Positions 3,614 through 16,768 of a DNA stretch of 16,768 nucleotides are shown here, in pieces. The notes beneath the pieces were generated by a model that was given only the letters and a program-made list of their open reading frames with translations, searched no databases and was not told the origin of the DNA. The first letter of the stretch is position 1. Every line of letters starts with the position of its first letter. Source of the DNA: Candidatus Cloacimonadota bacterium. GTDB lineage: Bacteria; Cloacimonadota; Cloacimonadia; JGIOTU-2. The stretch lies in contig JAFGDR010000041.1 in the NCBI GenBank assembly GCA_016932035.1, positions 1 to 16,768 of the forward strand, given 5' to 3'. The position numbers and the translations under genes were made by a program.

Positions 3614-5149
3614 TTACAATTCAAACTCCAGTTTCTTCGCCCACAACGCAGTCCTGTCACGATTTCTCAAGAAATTATCGATCATGAATTCCCGGTCGAT
3701 TGCTACGTTCTCATCAAAAACAACGTTATTATTTATAATCACTTTTACAGGATTTTCAAAATTTACCATATCAGGATGAAGATACAATGCAAGCTTCTTC
3801 ACCTGTGATGTCTTTATTACGAACTCATTGCCGAAATAGTGTGCCTGAATTGCTCCCGATGGTTTTGAATAGATGATCGCATCATAATAGGTGGTGTCTG
3901 GAAACTGCCCGTAAAGTTTAACTTCTTCTCCATATCTTTTCACCGTGAGGGAGACTGAATCTCCTCGCTGTTTGAAAGTTTTGAGACTGTCCATGTCATC
4001 CAAAGAAAGAAGAGTCACACCATCCATTGCAATGATCAAGTCATGCTCCTGCAAACCCATTAGCCTGGCTGTTGTTTCTCCATCCACAAGATTATAAACC
4101 ATGATACCGTCATAGTCAAAGTCATCATCAGGATAAAAACCGAAGCTTATCCGGTCATCAGGCAATTGTGTTTGATATTCAAGCTGCCAGAACTGCTGTG
4201 TCATGGTTGAGTCTATCTCAAGTATTTCCAGCCAGTCACATTTGCCGTAATCCGGTGTCCATGTTTCCCAGTAAATGCTTGGCCGGAAGATATCTCTCGG
4301 CTGGAGTTGCATGTCCTGTATCATGATAGGTATTTCCTCTGGTGCATAATCAAAATCATGACCGATACCCCAGTATTCTTTATACAGGAGATTGGCATCT
4401 GCCTGAAGTGCAAGATCCATGATGAGACGCATTCGTTTTGCAGGATACAGCCCATCTATATCAGTATTGATCGCATTCACCCGTCTGTTTCTCAAGTTAG
4501 CAACAAAGGTAGGTCTGTTTGTAACGCGAGATCCAACCGATAGAAATCCGTTCAGGGGATAGAAGGATGCAAAATCATCGGGAGCGCTCATTGCCATGAA
4601 AAAGGAACCGGAACCGCCATCTGAGAATCCTGTCATATATATGCGGTCATCATCGATATTGAACATTGTTTTAAGTGCCCTGATCTGTGCATGAATGTTA
4701 TTCACACCACTCAGATCCCACCAGGATGTATCAATGTTTCCAAAAGGAAAAAGCATGAGCCAATTTTGCTCCTCGGCAAATGGGACGAAGTAATTATTCT
4801 GCATGAAATCTTCTTCAATTTCATAAAATTCTTTTGTGCTGACACCGCCATGCAGATATATAAGCATAGGGGTTTTAAAGGAAGCATCATAGTTGGATGG
4901 AATATACAGCACATATGGCGCATCCAGCGTGTCATTTATATGATTATAGTAGGCTATTGTGACACCTGTGGAATCCGGTTGATAATACTGATTCCAGGTA
5001 CTGAGAATTGCATAGAGCGAATCGTCTGGAATCGAGGTGTTCATGGCATAACTACTTATCCTATTCAACCAGTTGTCATCTTGAGAAAAAAGCATTGTTG
5101 AAATACTTATAACAAGTAGGGCTATAATAATGAGACTATATTTTTTCAT
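3614..5149 (-). CDS. exported alpha/beta hydrolase (esterase/PHB-depolymerase-like) with PDZ domain
   Basis: A 511-residue secreted or periplasmic protein. The signal peptide is about residues 1-22 (MKKYSLIIIALLVISISTML, then FSQ). A PHB-depolymerase/feruloyl-esterase-like hydrolase fold follows: the HGG oxyanion segment at 100-102, nucleophile elbow GFSDGG with Ser176, and a probable catalytic His264 in GIGHDFDY. The acid residue is likely one of the Asp residues around 228-246 but cannot be fixed by eye. Residues about 345-417 form a PDZ-like module (GIMVYNLVDG..A..MGLQEHDLIIAMDG), and the C-terminal 90 residues are beta-rich. Its ATG overlaps the addAB stop by 4 bp, so it is translationally coupled to a DNA-repair enzyme although exported; no shared function is evident. 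The substrate is unknown. Confidence 0.75.
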   Translation of the reverse strand: MKKYSLIIIALLVISISTMLFSQDDNWLNRISSYAMNTSIPDDSLYAILSTWNQYYQPDSTGVTIAYYNHINDTLDAPYVLYIPSNYDASFKTPMLIYLHGGVSTKEFYEIEEDFMQNNYFVPFAEEQNWLMLFPFGNIDTSWWDLSGVNNIHAQIRALKTMFNIDDDRIYMTGFSDGGSGSFFMAMSAPDDFASFYPLNGFLSVGSRVTNRPTFVANLRNRRVNAINTDIDGLYPAKRMRLIMDLALQADANLLYKEYWGIGHDFDYAPEEIPIMIQDMQLQPRDIFRPSIYWETWTPDYGKCDWLEILEIDSTMTQQFWQLEYQTQLPDDRISFGFYPDDDFDYDGIMVYNLVDGETTARLMGLQEHDLIIAMDGVTLLSLDDMDSLKTFKQRGDSVSLTVKRYGEEVKLYGQFPDTTYYDAIIYSKPSGAIQAHYFGNEFVIKTSQVKKLALYLHPDMVNFENPVKVIINNNVVFDENVAIDREFMIDNFLRNRDRTALWAKKLEFEL

Positions 5150-8100
5150 GATATCTTCTCTTTGTTGAATCGTATTTGATTTATGATATCTTTGTACATA
5201 TTAAACATCGAATTTTTCCTGCACAGCTTGTAATACAAGCAGTAATTGCATGGCTTTCCGTTCCTTTCTCTTTCACGGATATTAAAATTTCCCAATAAGA
5301 CTTTTTCACCATAGTGTAAGAGTATTTTAATAATATCTTTTTCAGATAGAATATACTCTGATCTACTTGTTTTGATGTGCATTTCATTGTTCCCGAAGTC
5401 AATAGTCAATGGGATCTTGCCCTGATCTTTTGTAGATTCGTATATAAATTTGACCTGTTTGTCCGGGTAATGCTTATGCAGTATGAAATAGTAGATTAGG
5501 GGTTGGACATCCCAGAATTCGTTGATGTCTGATGCTTGCGGTGTTGAACCGGTTTTATAATCGATGCCGATGATCTCTGAATGATCATTCTTTTCCAGAA
5601 TTTTATCGATTTTACCCCAGAAGTTCAGTGTGACTATCTCGTTGTGAATATCAAGTACTGACCACGGCTCTTGATTTGTTTGTTTGTGCATACCAAATTC
5701 TTGCTCGAAGTGTAGCGGTGTGTAGTCATTAAAATTTTCCTTATTGAAACTAAGCAGTGTTACTAAAAGATTATTCTCATGAGCTTCATCGAGTCCTTCA
5801 GTATATGGCGCATAAAGTCGCTGAAGGAATAGATCGTTTTCAAGATGGATATGGTTTTTCTGTAGAACCTGTTTCACCTGTTGATTAAGCAGAGAACATG
5901 CCTGTTCGAAATTATGTTTCAGAATGGTAAAACCATCAACATTGCCAAATTTTTCAAGTGCCTCGTGGATATTAATTCCAAGAGCAATACGCACTTCGGA
6001 ATCTTCATCAAACTCAAGAGGTTTGATCTTGAGTATATCTTGGAATAGATACTGCATTGGGCATTGAATAAGGGTATTCATGCTGCTTGCAGAGGTCAGC
6101 AGTGTGTGCGATCCGTCAGGTTCGACCTGTCCTTTGAACGGTCCAATATCTTCACTGAGATAGTCGTTGTGCCGTTGAAGGACTGGAAGGATTGGATTTT
6201 CGATAATACGGTCTTCACATGTAAGGTAATACTGGCGTAGTGTTTGACGTGTTGATGAAGTAGTAATTTGTTGATTTATGATCTTTATTCCTTCCAGCAG
6301 GATGGATGGATTAAGTGTATCCCCTGACATATTCTGGCATGGATAGGAGAGATGTGTGTGTTGTTTCCTCTGCATCCACGAATTGAAGAGGAGGGCACTT
6401 TTCTGCCATTCATAGTGTGGGAGCGATTTTACAAAAGGATTCTTCTTAGGCGGTACAGGAAAATATTTTTCTGCAAGTCCTGCAATAAACAATACGGGTG
6501 TACTGGTATTATATGATTCGAGATAGCTTATAACCTCGACACCATTTCCTGTTCTTTTACGTGACATCTCAGCTTCTTTGAACTGCCTTTTCAAATCGCG
6601 AAGAAGGTCATCCGGCTTTTCAGGAAATCCTATCTCTCTGTATATATCAATGGTTGAATTAATTATGTTTTTAATTTTGGTGTAAGCTGATTTGGATTCA
6701 ATATGCTTGTCGATCGCGGGATCAATCTTTCTATTTTGAAGAAACTCCTCAATTATGTTCCAGATATCAGATAAATCATTTACATGATCAATTTCAAGCT
6801 CAGCAATAAGTTCACAAACCGCATGAATCGAGTCTCGAAATTCATCAACATGTTCAAGTTCTGTAATATCACTAAAATAGGTGATCGGCTTTTGCCTAAT
6901 AAATGCATCGAGTTTGTAAAATTGCTCATTCTCGGGCATAAGCGGATGAAGCAGTATTGACGAAAGGGTCTTCCAGGTCAGGTGTTCCGATGAAAGTATA
7001 ATTGTAAGAATGTTTGTGATAAGGTCTGTGAGTGGGTTATCGATGAGCGGCAGTGGTGCATGAATACGATGTGATATGCCATATGCAGTAAAAACATTTT
7101 TGATGACGGGCACATACACGTCGATACTGGAGATCGAAAGTTGAATGTCATGATACGAAACGTTCTGATTGGTTAGTTCTATAATTTTTTGAGCAATGCC
7201 CTCGATTTCAGTCTCAACCGAATAATATGATAAACATATTCCTTCTGAATTAATTATAGGTACGATTGTCTCCCAAATCTGCTGGGTATAATTAAATGAA
7301 GTAGTAAGCGCATCATTCTTGAAACTGTCTATGAAGTAGAATTTCTCGGTTTGCTCAGATAACAATTTGATAAAAGAGAAATACTTCGCCGAGTCCCTGA
7401 AAAAGCCCTTTAGAATAATGGTTTTATCCGACAGCTTTTCCCTTAATAGATTTTCACTTATTTCTGATTCAAAGAAAAATCCATGTGATTTTTTTAGCCC
7501 CTCAAAATTATTATAGATCTTATTGAACTCCTTGTTCAGAGTTTTGAACTCTTTTTCCTGCAGATCATACTTAATGATCGCTTGTGCAAGAAGTTCGATC
7601 ATTCCGTCAGAGAGTTGATAGTCTTCTGACGCTTTTCTGACAAGCATTCTACAAACACTCGGAGTTATCATTTTTCTCGATGATGATATAACAAGATGGT
7701 TAAGTGTTGTGATCTCTATATTAGGGGTCAGCCTTTTGATCGCAGCAAGTGATTGAATCATCTGTTTTGCATGTAGTGACGTGAGATTGATAATTGTGAT
7801 GGGTTCATCATTAATCTTTTCAAGAATATCGTGATTTATCGGTGCTGCACGCAGCTTAGAAGGATAAAAAGGATGTATCTCCTCAGGAAAAATCTCTGAC
7901 CAATACTTGCTAGAAAAAGGTATTTCTCTCAATTCATTAAAAGCAGAATAGTAAATATATGCTTTTGCATCGATAGCATATAATTGCCTGACGATCCACT
8001 GATATGTCTGGAGTTGAAGCGTGTATTGTTCGTGAAATTGGGCTGTTTGATTAGTCTTGAAGTCAACGATTTTCCAACCATCCACATCTTTATATAATAG

Positions 8101-11100
8101 ATCGATAATACCATTGACTTCATAAAAATTTTTTCCGTTATCCATCCATCCGGTTACGTGATGTTCATGATGGAGATTTTTTTCATCTATTTGTTCGATA
8201 GTTTTAGCAAGGTTAGATGAGGAGAAGTGATCGAGATGTATTTTAAGTATTTGCTGAATCTCATTAAAAGACAATGCTGGGAAATTGGTAGTAACGAACT
8301 TCTCGATTTCAGATTTATGTGTATCCCATCGCCACCAGTGTTTTTCAATACATGTATGGAAGATCGTGCCGAATGCAAGAGCAGCAACATTGTCTGTACC
8401 TTCATTTGAAAATGTCGGACAATCTGCTTGATCTAAACTTTTCATAATATCATGAGGTGTAATTCGAGTATAGATATCTTTATGAACAGGGATAGTGGGG
8501 GGATTCCAGTGAGTCAGTTTCATCTCTTTATCGATTTCTCGAGCAAGTCGATCATTCAATTCGTCTGCAGACATGCATGAGATAGCTAAGTGTGAAGGGG
8601 GGAGGAACTCGCCAGCGTTTATATCTTCAAAAGTTTGCGGTAATCCAAGCGGTGTAGCGACAAATGTTGACCACCATGACTTTTTATTATACGTACCAGT
8701 GTGTTCTCCAAGTAACGCAATCCGGTATTTTGCCCGGGTAACAGCCACATAGAACATACGTTTATCCTCAGCTTCCTGCTCGATCTTGTCCTGTTGCTTT
8801 ATGAGGTTAAGAAAATTCGATTTTCTTGATTCGGTTTGTTCTTTGATTGCAATTCCGACTTCGATCATGCCTTCTGGATTGATGCGGCTGTGATAGATGT
8901 TCCCTTTATCTGACTGTGTTTTTGTGTCATTGAGTTCCGGGATAATGACGGTTGGGAATTCCAATCCCTTTGCTTTATGGATCGTCATGATCTGTACTTT
9001 TGCAGGTTCAGGCAGATCGGCTTGAGCAACCTCGCTCTTGTAACGAATTTGATAAGCAAGATAATCATGAAGTTCCTGCAGCGATATCCCTTCAAGCTCG
9101 AGTTGGGAAATGAGATGCAGCAGCTTATCGATATTTGCCAGACGCTGTCTTCCACCTACCTCACTCACGTAACCGAGTTCTCTGTGTTTTTTAGAAAGCA
9201 CCTCGTGTAGTAATGCATGTACAGAAAGTTTTTGAGAAAGTTGTCGCCAGTGCTGTATAGTTTGAATTATGTCATAATACTCAGTTTTGTTCGACATATA
9301 GGCAAGGATCGATTCTTTCTCTTTTTTCAACCTTCTGTCTTTAAGATTGTATATCAATGTATCCGACACACAGAAGAAGGGACTTCTCAGCAATCCCACG
9401 AGCGAGGCATCGTCGTGTGGATTGATCAGCACACTAATAAAATGAAAGAGGTCATATGCTTCCTGCTGGTTGAACAGATTTCTTTCGCCAATGATCTGGA
9501 AAGGAATCCCCAGTTCCTGAAACGCACGAAGATATTCATGTATGTGAATGAAGTTCCTGAGTAAAACTCCAACAATCACTTCCTCATTTATCTGCTGTTC
9601 ATCTGCCCATTCAAGATACTTTTCGGCCATATATGCTGCATGTTTTGACGGAATATAGTTCTGTTGATTTTGATCGATTTCAATAATGCTAATATCGCAT
9701 ACAGTTTCAGACCCGATACCATCTTTTTTTCTGTTTCTCGGAAATGAAGTCTCCTCAAACGATGCTTCAAAGGAATGTTCGGAAGGAGTAAAAATCTTTC
9801 TGAACAAAGGATTGATCACATGATCGATATACCTTTTCGAAGAGCGGTAATTATCATTGAATGCTATGAGCGCTTCGGGAGCAACCTCTTCGAGTTCATC
9901 CCGGGCGACATTCATCACTTCAACATCTGCCTGCTGGAAACGATAGATGGATTGCTTCTTGTCGCCTACAATAAATAAACCCTTATTTCGAAGAGTCCCA
10001 TCAGCTTTTTTTGCAATATTCTTGATGATCTCCCAGCGAAGGTTGTTGGTATCCTGGAATTCGTCTACAAGGATATGTTTGAACTGCTCTGAATATTGTT
10101 TTCTAACATTTTCATGTTCCGAAAGCAATTCTCTTGTTTTGATGATCACGTCATTAAAGGTGAGATAGTTCTTTCGTAGTTGGGTCTGCCAGAGTGCATC
10201 TTCGAACTCGGCATACAACGTTATCAGGTCTTTGAAAACTTCGATTGAACGTATATCCTCTTCTGCAGGAAAGAAGAGCACTTTACTTTGCGGAATATGC
10301 TGTGATAGTTCATCGAGAATTACATTTCCTGCATCTCTATAACCATTATATATATCTGGATTGATAAAACTTTTTTTGGTCTGTATGAAACGTGATTCAG
10401 AATAATATTCATTTTTTTTTGTAAGAAAGTAGGGAAGTACTTCAGCCATGAAGTATCGGTGTCGCTCCTGTTCCATATCTTCAGGAATATGTTCCAGCTT
10501 GGCTCTGAGGAAGGCGAGATTATTTTCTTCACTATCTAATATGTGCTCATGATATTGTGCAATGCTTTTAACTTTTCGAACAAGCAAGTCAACATCAAAC
10601 TCAGGTAAGTAGGTATCTAACCAATATCTATATATTTCATTTTTAGATTTGTTCTCCACGAACTCGAGCCATTCTTCGAGAAACACCTTTCTGTCATTGA
10701 AGTAATTGAAGAACTGGATTATACCGCTCTTGTCTGTGTATTGAAGGATTCGTTTCAGCTCCGGTCGAAGCGCTTTACTTTGCCTGTTAAAAAATTCATT
10801 CAGGGTTTCTCGATAGAGTTTCTGCGCAAGTAATTCGTCCGAGGTTTTGAATTGCGGATCGATATTCAGCAGGTATGCGTTTTCCCTGAGTACGCTTCCG
10901 CAAAATGCATCGATGGTCATGATATAATTCTGTGAAAAGGTAGAGCGAAGCCAGTTTTTGTAATCCTCAGGAGCATTTCTAATAGTATCTCCAAGAGAAA
11001 TACCTTGTTCTTTCATATCAGATATTTCTTCATCTCTTAGTAAGACCTGCAAGTCTTCATAGATACGGCGGGACATCTCAGCGGCAGCTTTATTCGTGAA

Positions 11101-11292
11101 TGTAATAACAAGAATATTCTTGAATCCAAGCCAATCATTTTTTGGTTTTTTCAGATTGTATTTGGTAAATTCATCGATGATAGCACAGTATCGTTTTGAC
11201 AGCGCATAGGTTTTTCCTGCACCCGCACATGCAGATACAATGCGATTGGTTGATAAATTCAAAGCTCTTTGTAAAGGTGAAGTTTCTTCCAT
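5146..11292 (-). CDS. addAB: AddA-AddB fusion helicase-nuclease (double-strand break repair)
   Basis: One 2048-residue polypeptide carrying both subunits of the AddAB (RecBCD-like) helicase-nuclease, which resects DNA double-strand ends for RecA. The AddA half (about 1-1150) has UvrD-type motifs: Walker A ACAGAGKT at 21-28, TFTNKAAAEM at 64-73, VDEFQDT near 408, GDKKQSIYRFQQAD near 441, MTIHKAKGLEF near 767 and VAVTRAK near 848. Its RecB-type nuclease has FGTIFH, then GIIDLL and VDFKT near 1075. The AddB half (about 1160-2048) has no visible Walker A and ends in a second nuclease: LGINIH, WGKIDK and IDYKTG near 1908. Cysteines for the AddB Fe-S cluster are present: one near 1743 (IQCPMQY) and three near 2013-2022 (CNYCLYYKLC). 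Bacterial AddA and AddB are normally separate adjacent genes of about 1000-1200 residues. The frame is uninterrupted, and the promoter lies in the 138-bp divergent gap. Confidence 0.9.
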   Translation of the reverse strand: MEETSPLQRALNLSTNRIVSACAGAGKTYALSKRYCAIIDEFTKYNLKKPKNDWLGFKNILVITFTNKAAAEMSRRIYEDLQVLLRDEEISDMKEQGISLGDTIRNAPEDYKNWLRSTFSQNYIMTIDAFCGSVLRENAYLLNIDPQFKTSDELLAQKLYRETLNEFFNRQSKALRPELKRILQYTDKSGIIQFFNYFNDRKVFLEEWLEFVENKSKNEIYRYWLDTYLPEFDVDLLVRKVKSIAQYHEHILDSEENNLAFLRAKLEHIPEDMEQERHRYFMAEVLPYFLTKKNEYYSESRFIQTKKSFINPDIYNGYRDAGNVILDELSQHIPQSKVLFFPAEEDIRSIEVFKDLITLYAEFEDALWQTQLRKNYLTFNDVIIKTRELLSEHENVRKQYSEQFKHILVDEFQDTNNLRWEIIKNIAKKADGTLRNKGLFIVGDKKQSIYRFQQADVEVMNVARDELEEVAPEALIAFNDNYRSSKRYIDHVINPLFRKIFTPSEHSFEASFEETSFPRNRKKDGIGSETVCDISIIEIDQNQQNYIPSKHAAYMAEKYLEWADEQQINEEVIVGVLLRNFIHIHEYLRAFQELGIPFQIIGERNLFNQQEAYDLFHFISVLINPHDDASLVGLLRSPFFCVSDTLIYNLKDRRLKKEKESILAYMSNKTEYYDIIQTIQHWRQLSQKLSVHALLHEVLSKKHRELGYVSEVGGRQRLANIDKLLHLISQLELEGISLQELHDYLAYQIRYKSEVAQADLPEPAKVQIMTIHKAKGLEFPTVIIPELNDTKTQSDKGNIYHSRINPEGMIEVGIAIKEQTESRKSNFLNLIKQQDKIEQEAEDKRMFYVAVTRAKYRIALLGEHTGTYNKKSWWSTFVATPLGLPQTFEDINAGEFLPPSHLAISCMSADELNDRLAREIDKEMKLTHWNPPTIPVHKDIYTRITPHDIMKSLDQADCPTFSNEGTDNVAALAFGTIFHTCIEKHWWRWDTHKSEIEKFVTTNFPALSFNEIQQILKIHLDHFSSSNLAKTIEQIDEKNLHHEHHVTGWMDNGKNFYEVNGIIDLLYKDVDGWKIVDFKTNQTAQFHEQYTLQLQTYQWIVRQLYAIDAKAYIYYSAFNELREIPFSSKYWSEIFPEEIHPFYPSKLRAAPINHDILEKINDEPITIINLTSLHAKQMIQSLAAIKRLTPNIEITTLNHLVISSSRKMITPSVCRMLVRKASEDYQLSDGMIELLAQAIIKYDLQEKEFKTLNKEFNKIYNNFEGLKKSHGFFFESEISENLLREKLSDKTIILKGFFRDSAKYFSFIKLLSEQTEKFYFIDSFKNDALTTSFNYTQQIWETIVPIINSEGICLSYYSVETEIEGIAQKIIELTNQNVSYHDIQLSISSIDVYVPVIKNVFTAYGISHRIHAPLPLIDNPLTDLITNILTIILSSEHLTWKTLSSILLHPLMPENEQFYKLDAFIRQKPITYFSDITELEHVDEFRDSIHAVCELIAELEIDHVNDLSDIWNIIEEFLQNRKIDPAIDKHIESKSAYTKIKNIINSTIDIYREIGFPEKPDDLLRDLKRQFKEAEMSRKRTGNGVEVISYLESYNTSTPVLFIAGLAEKYFPVPPKKNPFVKSLPHYEWQKSALLFNSWMQRKQHTHLSYPCQNMSGDTLNPSILLEGIKIINQQITTSSTRQTLRQYYLTCEDRIIENPILPVLQRHNDYLSEDIGPFKGQVEPDGSHTLLTSASSMNTLIQCPMQYLFQDILKIKPLEFDEDSEVRIALGINIHEALEKFGNVDGFTILKHNFEQACSLLNQQVKQVLQKNHIHLENDLFLQRLYAPYTEGLDEAHENNLLVTLLSFNKENFNDYTPLHFEQEFGMHKQTNQEPWSVLDIHNEIVTLNFWGKIDKILEKNDHSEIIGIDYKTGSTPQASDINEFWDVQPLIYYFILHKHYPDKQVKFIYESTKDQGKIPLTIDFGNNEMHIKTSRSEYILSEKDIIKILLHYGEKVLLGNFNIRERERNGKPCNYCLYYKLCRKNSMFNMYKDIINQIRFNKEKIS

Positions 11293-15264: not shown

Positions 15265-16335
15265 ATGAAAAAAATTACTGTTATAGTTTTGTTTACTTGT
15301 TTGTTATTCAGCCAGCTATATAGCAAACCTGAAATTTCCATTAAAGAAACAACATTTGATTTTGGTGATATATTAGAATCAAATGGCAAGGTTCATCATA
15401 AATTCTTTTTCACAAATATCGGTGATGAACCACTGAAGATTAAAAAAGTTTCTTCCTCTTGAGGGTGTACTGTAACCAGTAGGTCTACTGGTTTAATCGC
15501 TCCAGGTGATAGTGGATTTGTCAAAGTTACATTTAATCCAAAAAACAGGAAAGGGAATTTTAAGAAATCTGCTACACTGGTAACGGATGCTGACAGCAAA
15601 CCGATAAGATTATATATTCAGGGTAATATAATCCCTCCTTATGATCAGCTCAAGAAACAAGAAGAATTGGAAATACAACTTGATGATATTTCATTTGGAG
15701 AAGTATACCACTCTGAAATTGTAAAAGATACAATCACAATAGTCAACGATGATAGTCTTATACTTCATGTCTTTGTCTATAAGGTTCCCAAATATTTAAA
15801 TTTTCAAATAGAATCCAATCAAATACCACCTCATTCATCTTCTAAAATAGTGTGTACCTTTTACCCTGATCAAGTTGATAAATATGGTTTTTTATACAAT
15901 AAAGTCACAACTCTGCTGTTTAATAATGAAAAAAAAATGCAAACAAAGCTTTTAATAACTGCAACTATTTTGCCAGATGTGAATTATAATGATAACATTA
16001 TTGAAGATAAAAATGCAAAAATTTCCTTTGAAGAATCAATTAAATATATCTACATTTCAAAAGACGATAAAAAAATCGAGTGTGAATTTTATTTTGAAAA
16101 TGTAGGAAATGATGATTTGAAGATTTACGATGTTTATATGAATCATGGATGTTCTGTAGGGGATTTTTCAGAGATTGTATCACCAGGAGAAAAGGGTCAT
16201 ATAATAATCGATTGCGATGATATCAATGATGGTAAAAATTATAAAAAAATTATCAATGTGATTTCAAATGATCCAGTAAAGCCGCAACAGGAACTCAGGA
16301 TAATGTATCAATTTGTTGAGGATGATGTAAAATGA
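15265..16335 (+). CDS. putative DUF1573 selenoprotein (in-frame UGA read as selenocysteine)
   Basis: The frame runs from ATG 15265 to TGA 16333-16335, 356 residues if TGA at 15460-15462 is decoded as Sec66. A signal peptide (about 1-20, ...LFSQLYSKPE) exports it. There are three tandem DUF1573/Ig-like repeats at about 23-115, 137-235 and 255-356. Repeat 1 reads FDFGDILESNGKVHHKFFFT, NIGDEPLKIKKVSSS, then TGA, then GCTVTSRSTGLIAPGDSGFV, and the family norm at that point is SSCGCT. The TGA therefore replaces the first Cys and leaves a U-G-C motif (Sec66, Cys68). Repeat 2 has no Cys there and repeat 3 has only GCS (Cys296). A SECIS-like hairpin lies just downstream. The frame has no other stop for 200 codons after the TGA, and family similarity continues across it. 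Function is unknown; a thiol/selenol redox role in the periplasm is inference. Without Sec insertion, only a 65-residue fragment would be made. The stop overlaps the rhodanese start. A miscalled TGT/TGC is the main alternative. Confidence 0.82.
15474..15493 (+). promoter_or_regulatory. bacterial SECIS-like hairpin
   Basis: AACCAGTA (15474-15481) pairs perfectly with TACTGGTT (15486-15493) around GGTC. Opening the closing A-T gives the apical hexamer AGGTCT, the same as the E. coli fdhF SECIS loop whose G and U bases contact SelB. Counting the U of UGA as 1, the loop is G23 G24 U25, against G22 G23 U24 in fdhF. The fdhF bulged U17 is absent and no lower stem is obvious; both vary among non-enteric bacteria. 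Its role would be to recruit SelB with Sec-tRNA to UGA 15460-15462. Confidence 0.82.
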
Positions 16336-16768
16336 AAATATTAAAATTTAATTATTTATTGTATTCGATTTCTATTCTTTTATTAACTCTCTTCTTTACT
16401 TCATGCAGTTCTCTAAAGTCCTCAAAATTACCAGCCATTTATGAGGATATTACATCAGAAGAGGCATTGAGGATAATATACCAACATGAAAGTAACAATA
16501 ATTTTGTTATTTTAGATGTAAGAACTCCTGAAGAAATTGAACATGGTTTTGTTGAAAATGCTATCTTTATTGATTATAAGGCAGATTCATTTGAAAATAA
16601 AATATCAGATTTAGATAAAAACAATATATATTTAGTCTATTGCAAAGCTGGCATACGAAGTACTAAGGTAGTGGAATTTATGGAAGAGAATGGTTTTTTG
16701 TATTTATACAATATAATTGATGGGTTCGATGGCTGGAATAAGAACGAGTTTCCGATAGAGGTTGATAA
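16332..16768 (+). CDS. rhodanese-like lipoprotein (3' end outside the window)
   Basis: The frame is open from ATG 16332 to the window edge, 145 complete codons. A lipoprotein signal (LLLTLFFTSC, lipidated Cys about residue 25) places it in the periplasm. A single rhodanese domain follows: the early FVILDVRTPEEIEHGFVENA element, and the active-site loop YCKAGIRS with the catalytic Cys that carries a persulfide in this family (CxxGxR). The late DGFDGWN element marks the C-terminal end, so little is likely missing. Its ATG overlaps the stop of the DUF1573 gene (ATGA, 16332-16335), and GAGG at 16319-16322 serves as ribosome site, so the two are translationally coupled. The inferred role is sulfur, perhaps selenium, transfer or thiol redox with the selenoprotein. 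Plain Cys is used at the active site; no in-frame TGA is seen. Confidence 0.85.
   Translation, partial: MKILKFNYLLYSISILLLTLFFTSCSSLKSSKLPAIYEDITSEEALRIIYQHESNNNFVILDVRTPEEIEHGFVENAIFIDYKADSFENKISDLDKNNIYLVYCKAGIRSTKVVEFMEENGFLYLYNIIDGFDGWNKNEFPIEVD

Follow-up and report, generated by a model that had tools for sequence, protein, structure and literature searches.

A Selenocysteine-Encoding DUF1573 Gene of Cloacimonadota and Its Likely Rhodanese Partner

Introduction

DUF1573 is already known as a selenoprotein family. It was listed in 2008 as OS_HP2/pfam07610 with the motif 'UxC' (PMC2398784), it appears with the motif UGC in the selenoprotein tables of two other publications (PMC9312934; PMC13188914), and NCBIfam holds a model for it, NF041425, 'OS_HP2 family (seleno)protein'. 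The reviews that list DUF1573 selenoproteins give the family name and motif only (PMC2398784; PMC9312934; PMC13188914), and we found no function for these proteins in them. Since 2008 they have thus been carried as a hypothetical family, for which a rhodanese would offer a concrete and testable partner. Rhodanese has been linked to selenocysteine (Sec) chemistry elsewhere, in the rhodanese-containing selenoproteins (NF041203 and TsoB, NF045694), where it lies inside the (seleno)protein model. Beyond separate entries in two of the above publications (PMC9312934; PMC13188914), we found no literature joining DUF1573 and rhodanese, although this is no proof of novelty.

Here we describe a DUF1573 selenoprotein gene and an adjoining rhodanese gene in a 16,768-nucleotide stretch of a Candidatus Cloacimonadota assembly (contig JAFGDR010000041.1 of GCA_016932035.1), referred to below as the window. 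The initial annotation of the window proposed the selenoprotein and supposed that DUF1573 may be new as such a family, a supposition that the published tables and the NCBIfam model contradict. What appears to be undescribed, within the literature searched, is a Sec-only form found across Cloacimonadota and its coupling to rhodanese. The selenoprotein-plus-rhodanese statement as a whole, leaving aside the exact chemistry, seems to us quite likely to be correct.

Results and Discussion

A DUF1573 Gene with One In-Frame UGA

The selenoprotein gene occupies positions 15265 to 16335 of the forward strand and encodes 356 residues, including Sec66, in three Ig-like (HYDIN/DUF1573-type) domains. Its frame runs from an ATG at 15265 through a single in-frame TGA at 15460-15462 (codon 66) to a TGA stop at 16333-16335, so that the 356-codon frame, with the TGA counted as Sec, spans 15265-16332. 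Translation of 15265-16335 confirmed the initial annotation in placing one TGA in an otherwise open frame. The split that it foresaw in automatic annotation also occurred, as standard ORF calling yielded a 65-aa ORF (15265-15462) and a 222-aa ORF (15667-16335). Default ORF calling would break the Sec-DUF1573 gene in this way across Cloacimonadota.

The TGA (15460-15462, forward strand) stands at the position of the first Cys of the CGC of DUF1573 proteins and gives a U-G-C-T motif, at the same column in homologues. Pfam DUF1573 (PF07610) matches residues 24-122, spanning the TGA, with an E-value of 1.4e-44 and 150.6 bits against a cut-off of 26.1; Pfam ASH matches residues 141-202, and NF041425 scores 116.9 bits (cut-off 100). 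The protein therefore shares with OS_HP2 (NF041425/PF07610 UGC) both the domain and the Sec position, the U of UGC. It departs from OS_HP2 as described in having three Ig-like domains, in the rhodanese that adjoins it or is fused to its relatives, and in its Cloacimonadota-wide Sec form, which has no Cys counterpart in that phylum.

The hydrophobic N-terminal stretch MKKITVIVLFTCLLFSQLYS (15265-15324, forward strand) is, by reading of the sequence, a probable signal peptide, which would imply export. Relatives likewise have a hydrophobic N-terminus, and residues 2-17 form a helix in the AlphaFold2 model. This model shows three Ig-like beta domains (mean pLDDT 89), with Sec66 in a turn between strands 57-64 and 69-73 of domain 1. 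By structure comparison, domain 1 resembles the VesB Ig domain (Z 11.8), and domains 2-3 resemble PDB 2qsv (Z 17.3), a functionally uncharacterized protein from Porphyromonas gingivalis. A three-domain Cys-containing DUF1573 protein of Bacteroides (L159, 355 aa) is a full-length homologue, with 25% identity over 359 columns (E 2e-26). It shares the probably exported multi-Ig architecture, but its motif is CAC where the Sec protein has UGC, and it has neither a SECIS hairpin nor an adjoining rhodanese. We also considered an HGC motif in domain 3 (NHGCSVGDFSE) as a second active site; it is kept only in L022 (HGC), L023 (QGC) and L026 (HGC), and because most other homologues lack it, no such site is claimed.

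The Probable Rhodanese Partner

Directly downstream lies the less expected part of the locus, which, like the SECIS hairpin described below, the initial annotation had not noticed. A gene for a 145-aa rhodanese-domain lipoprotein (16332-16768, forward strand) overlaps the selenoprotein gene by an ATGA start/stop and reaches the contig edge, with its codons at 16332-16766. Pfam Rhodanese (PF00581) matches it with an E-value of 3e-12, and its sequence reads as a lipobox-like LFFTSC at the N-terminus and an active-site loop YCKAGIRS, so that both the domain and the catalytic Cys loop are present. In its domain and its CxxGxRS active loop it resembles single-domain rhodaneses of the PspE/GlpE type, yet it falls below the PspE and GlpE cut-offs and, unlike that type, has a selenoprotein as its gene neighbour or fusion partner. 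As in NF041203 and TsoB, a rhodanese is here linked to selenocysteine chemistry, but in this case the rhodanese keeps its Cys while the Sec sits in the DUF1573 domain, and it scores far below the cut-offs of both models (36 of 115 bits and 18.9 of 805 bits, respectively).

Among 29 countable genes, the rhodanese is C-terminally fused in 16 (L058, L069, L070, L072, L076 twice, L078, L079, L081, L083, L106 twice, L107, L110, L122, L123) and separate but adjacent in three, namely the source gene and its closest relatives (L063, L115). Two further copies stand in tandem with a rhodanese-fused one (L072, L079), and in the other eight a rhodanese is neither fused nor adjacent (L051, L065, L074, L080, L094, L100, L103, L149). 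Since a genome holds only few rhodanese-like matches, adjacency or fusion in 19/29 genes would hardly arise by chance. The partnership is nonetheless not obligatory, because about a third of homologues are without a fused or adjacent rhodanese. Tandem duplicates of the Sec-DUF1573 gene occur in L076, L106, L072 and L079, with rhodanese on some and absent from others. In one fused copy (L048) the rhodanese Cys has been lost, with YSDD instead of YCxx, and the usual Arg of rhodanese is absent in L027 and L030. A model of a fused relative is good by domain (pLDDT 90.6), but its domain arrangement is uncertain because the pTM is 0.61.

From these patterns, a functional partnership between the Sec-DUF1573 protein and the rhodanese is probable. 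As a Rosetta-stone link across a candidate phylum, it would point to extracytoplasmic redox chemistry of sulfane sulfur. The OS_HP2/DUF1573 selenoprotein would be exported and act outside the cytoplasm. Its redox site would be the Sec-Gly-Cys pair, held on a turn of the first Ig domain, where the selenolate and the resolving Cys could cycle via a selenenylsulfide. The rhodanese would bear a Cys-persulfide, and sulfane sulfur or electrons might pass between it and this site, for instance when sulfur from persulfide, polysulfide or thiosulfate is reduced or relayed at the cell envelope. Persulfide exchange between the Sec-Gly-Cys site and the rhodanese is a possibility that we advance tentatively. 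The same reserve applies to the full proposal, in which Sec-DUF1573 and rhodanese would form an undescribed extracytoplasmic selenium/sulfur relay, either two-component or single-chain, with the Sec form fixed throughout Cloacimonadota and sulfane sulfur exchanged between an Ig-domain selenolate and a rhodanese persulfide. Were it true, such a relay would be the first testable function for DUF1573 selenoproteins.

A somewhat unlikely alternative keeps the selenoprotein and assigns its UGC site to general electron transfer in the envelope, to thiol oxidoreduction (PDI/DsbA-like) or to metal binding, with rhodanese as one of several modules. Typical thiol-redox motifs include CXC and UXC pairs, and several Cloacimonadota copies are without any rhodanese. 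Moreover, cytochrome c takes the place of rhodanese as the fusion partner of a Sec-DUF1573 protein in a Methylomirabilota genome (L181), which points to general electron transfer more than to a sulfur-specific role. Against this, rhodanese is the only module that is repeatedly fused or immediately downstream within the phylum, whereas the other conserved neighbours are confined to small subsets (4 contigs have an M23 peptidase gene upstream, and 6 have a divergent VanZ-like gene). Partnership with the rhodanese remains our preferred reading.

Two further observations concern DUF1573 proteins of Methylomirabilota. The Sec-DUF1573 gene of L181 (1180-1929, reverse strand) has the UGCT motif and a strong hairpin after the UGA, in addition to the fused c-type cytochrome domain. 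In L166 and L186 (Rokubacteria-like), DUF1573-like genes contain an in-frame TGA within GCUPP (KAGCUPPKAVVGQTT and VKGCUPPEAVVGQTT). We rejected this as the same site as in the source gene, as the motif differs (GCU); it is possibly a second Sec position in the DUF1573 fold.

Conservation of the UGA

A protein search of 98 related genomes recovered homologues in 22 whose TGA falls in the same column, and this holds for all 23 of the genes found. In the 21 genomes other than the source, all of the same class, these homologues are 24-52% identical. Such recurrence at one column is far beyond what chance would produce. Exactly one in-frame TGA is present in 22 of the 23 genes; the remaining gene (L042) carries two and appears to be damaged. 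When 124 genomes of the phylum were searched with a profile, the picture was consistent, in that every match fully spanning the site was the TGA form and none was a Cys form, and the UGCT motif was found in every Cloacimonadota copy read. The Cys counterparts, CGC or CAC at the Sec column, are found in Bacteroidota and others, so that the Cys/TGA pairs which the initial annotation advised looking for do occur among the homologues. Among the DUF1573 matches listed from 395 sampled Bacteroidota genomes, none has a stop, and the Cys form is therefore the rule in the Bacteroidota sampled. Within Cloacimonadota, selA was present in 20/22 genomes with the TGA gene versus 28/76 without it (Fisher p 5.6e-6); the two TGA-gene genomes in which selA was not found are draft assemblies.

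The damaged copy belongs to Candidatus Tenebribacter burtonii (L042/L127). It is a fused copy with an additional in-frame TGA and an interrupted reading frame, its rhodanese part lying in a separate frame, and it would reflect decay or assembly error.

A fresh pseudogene, too, would show just one stop with the frame open elsewhere, and this relative does look damaged. That the TGA of the source gene is a nonsense mutation, a mark of a pseudogene or a sequencing error at one codon is, however, very improbable. The same TGA is found in 22 independent genomes, in frames that are otherwise open, and its retention at one column among homologues this divergent refutes that explanation; the covarying hairpin and the presence of the Sec machinery, presented below, also speak against it.

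A Covarying SECIS Hairpin

A bacterial SECIS-type hairpin is present at 15474-15493 on the forward strand, 19 nt after the UGA, with an 8-bp stem (AACCAGTA/TACTGGTT) and the apical loop GGTC (GGUC) at 15482-15485. The bSECIS model quoted in PMC13188914 asks for a loop of 3-9 nt, a stem of 4-16 bp and a G in the first two loop positions, along with a distance of 16-37 nt from the UGA and an MFE of at most -7.5 kcal/mol. The hairpin geometry agrees with all four criteria of this model, and the folding energy of the hairpin region is -15.2 kcal/mol over 53 nt (RNA fold). An Rfam scan of the window gave no matches, and none is expected for bSECIS.

We assessed covariation on the 23 homologous genes, which had been found by protein search without use of the hairpin. 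These genes are the independent evidence; the named contigs with the hairpin came from a pattern that contains it and so provide none, and the remaining matches of the pattern scan were set aside as chance, being without DUF1573 context. The loop is GGTC in 23/23 genes, stem cells are paired in 94.2%, and four of six scored stem pairs show changes on both sides (AU/GC, UA/CG, UA/AU and CG/UA). The covariation score was 0.206 versus 0.075 in shuffles, none of 500 shuffles reached it, and the pairing collapses when the stem partners are slid. Several of the stem changes are synonymous: the Ser74 codon reads TCT where AGG precedes it and TCA where TGG does, and the Thr75 codon switches between ACT and ACC along with its partner base in the stem. 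Among 27 DUF1573 domains with Cys, taken from other phyla, no GGTC loop occurs and at most 3/6 pairs form. These Cys homologues, which lack a SECIS, do not keep Ser74, so that this residue is seemingly dictated by the hairpin, and its invariance in the Sec proteins would be a side effect of the RNA element. Taken singly, the hairpin has a weak thermodynamic z-score (-1.37), and the case for a SECIS rests on the covariation and the Cys controls instead. The hairpin offers a clean example of a covarying SECIS.

Selenocysteine Decoding in the Source Genome

The source genome assembly (2.44 Mb, 95% complete) encodes a tRNA-Sec (60.1 bits, above the cut-off; anticodon tca by ARAGORN). On one contig, this tRNA gene, selA (533.6 bits) and selB (324.5 bits) follow one another directly in that order. 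There are two copies of selD, at C33:3525-4451 (L018) and C2:19251-20177 (L017). The search for selA, selB, selC and selD that the initial annotation had recommended thus returned the whole set, whose presence in one genome is among the criteria for a bacterial selenoprotein gene.

Together, the conserved Sec-Gly-Cys-Thr motif, the SECIS hairpin and this full pathway for Sec decoding are compatible only with recoding by SelB and Sec-tRNA, and UGA codon 66 is almost certainly decoded as Sec. The initial annotation's selenoprotein reading is thereby upheld by the machinery, the TGA conserved across genomes, the covarying SECIS and the association with selA. A variant genetic code with UGA as a sense codon (Trp or Gly) would also allow read-through in the source gene, but its probability is negligible, as the source gene and several homologues terminate at a TGA stop, the tRNA with anticodon UCA is tRNA-Sec, selA and selB are free of internal stops, and code reassignment would not give one TGA per gene at the Cys column.

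The two selD copies differ in form. One, in which an in-frame TGA occupies the catalytic Cys/Sec position (KAAGUAAK), is itself of selenoprotein form; the other is a Cys form (GMGCACK) in the same open frame as a cysteine-desulfurase-like N-terminal part.

Elsewhere in the window, positions 5146-11292 of the reverse strand hold a single 2048-aa ORF resembling AddA and AddB in one chain. Its N-terminus is of the UvrD helicase type (residues 9-859) and the chain is AddA/RecB-like to about residue 1106, after which an AddB-like half carries a C-terminal PD-(D/E)XK nuclease and a CxxC...C end.
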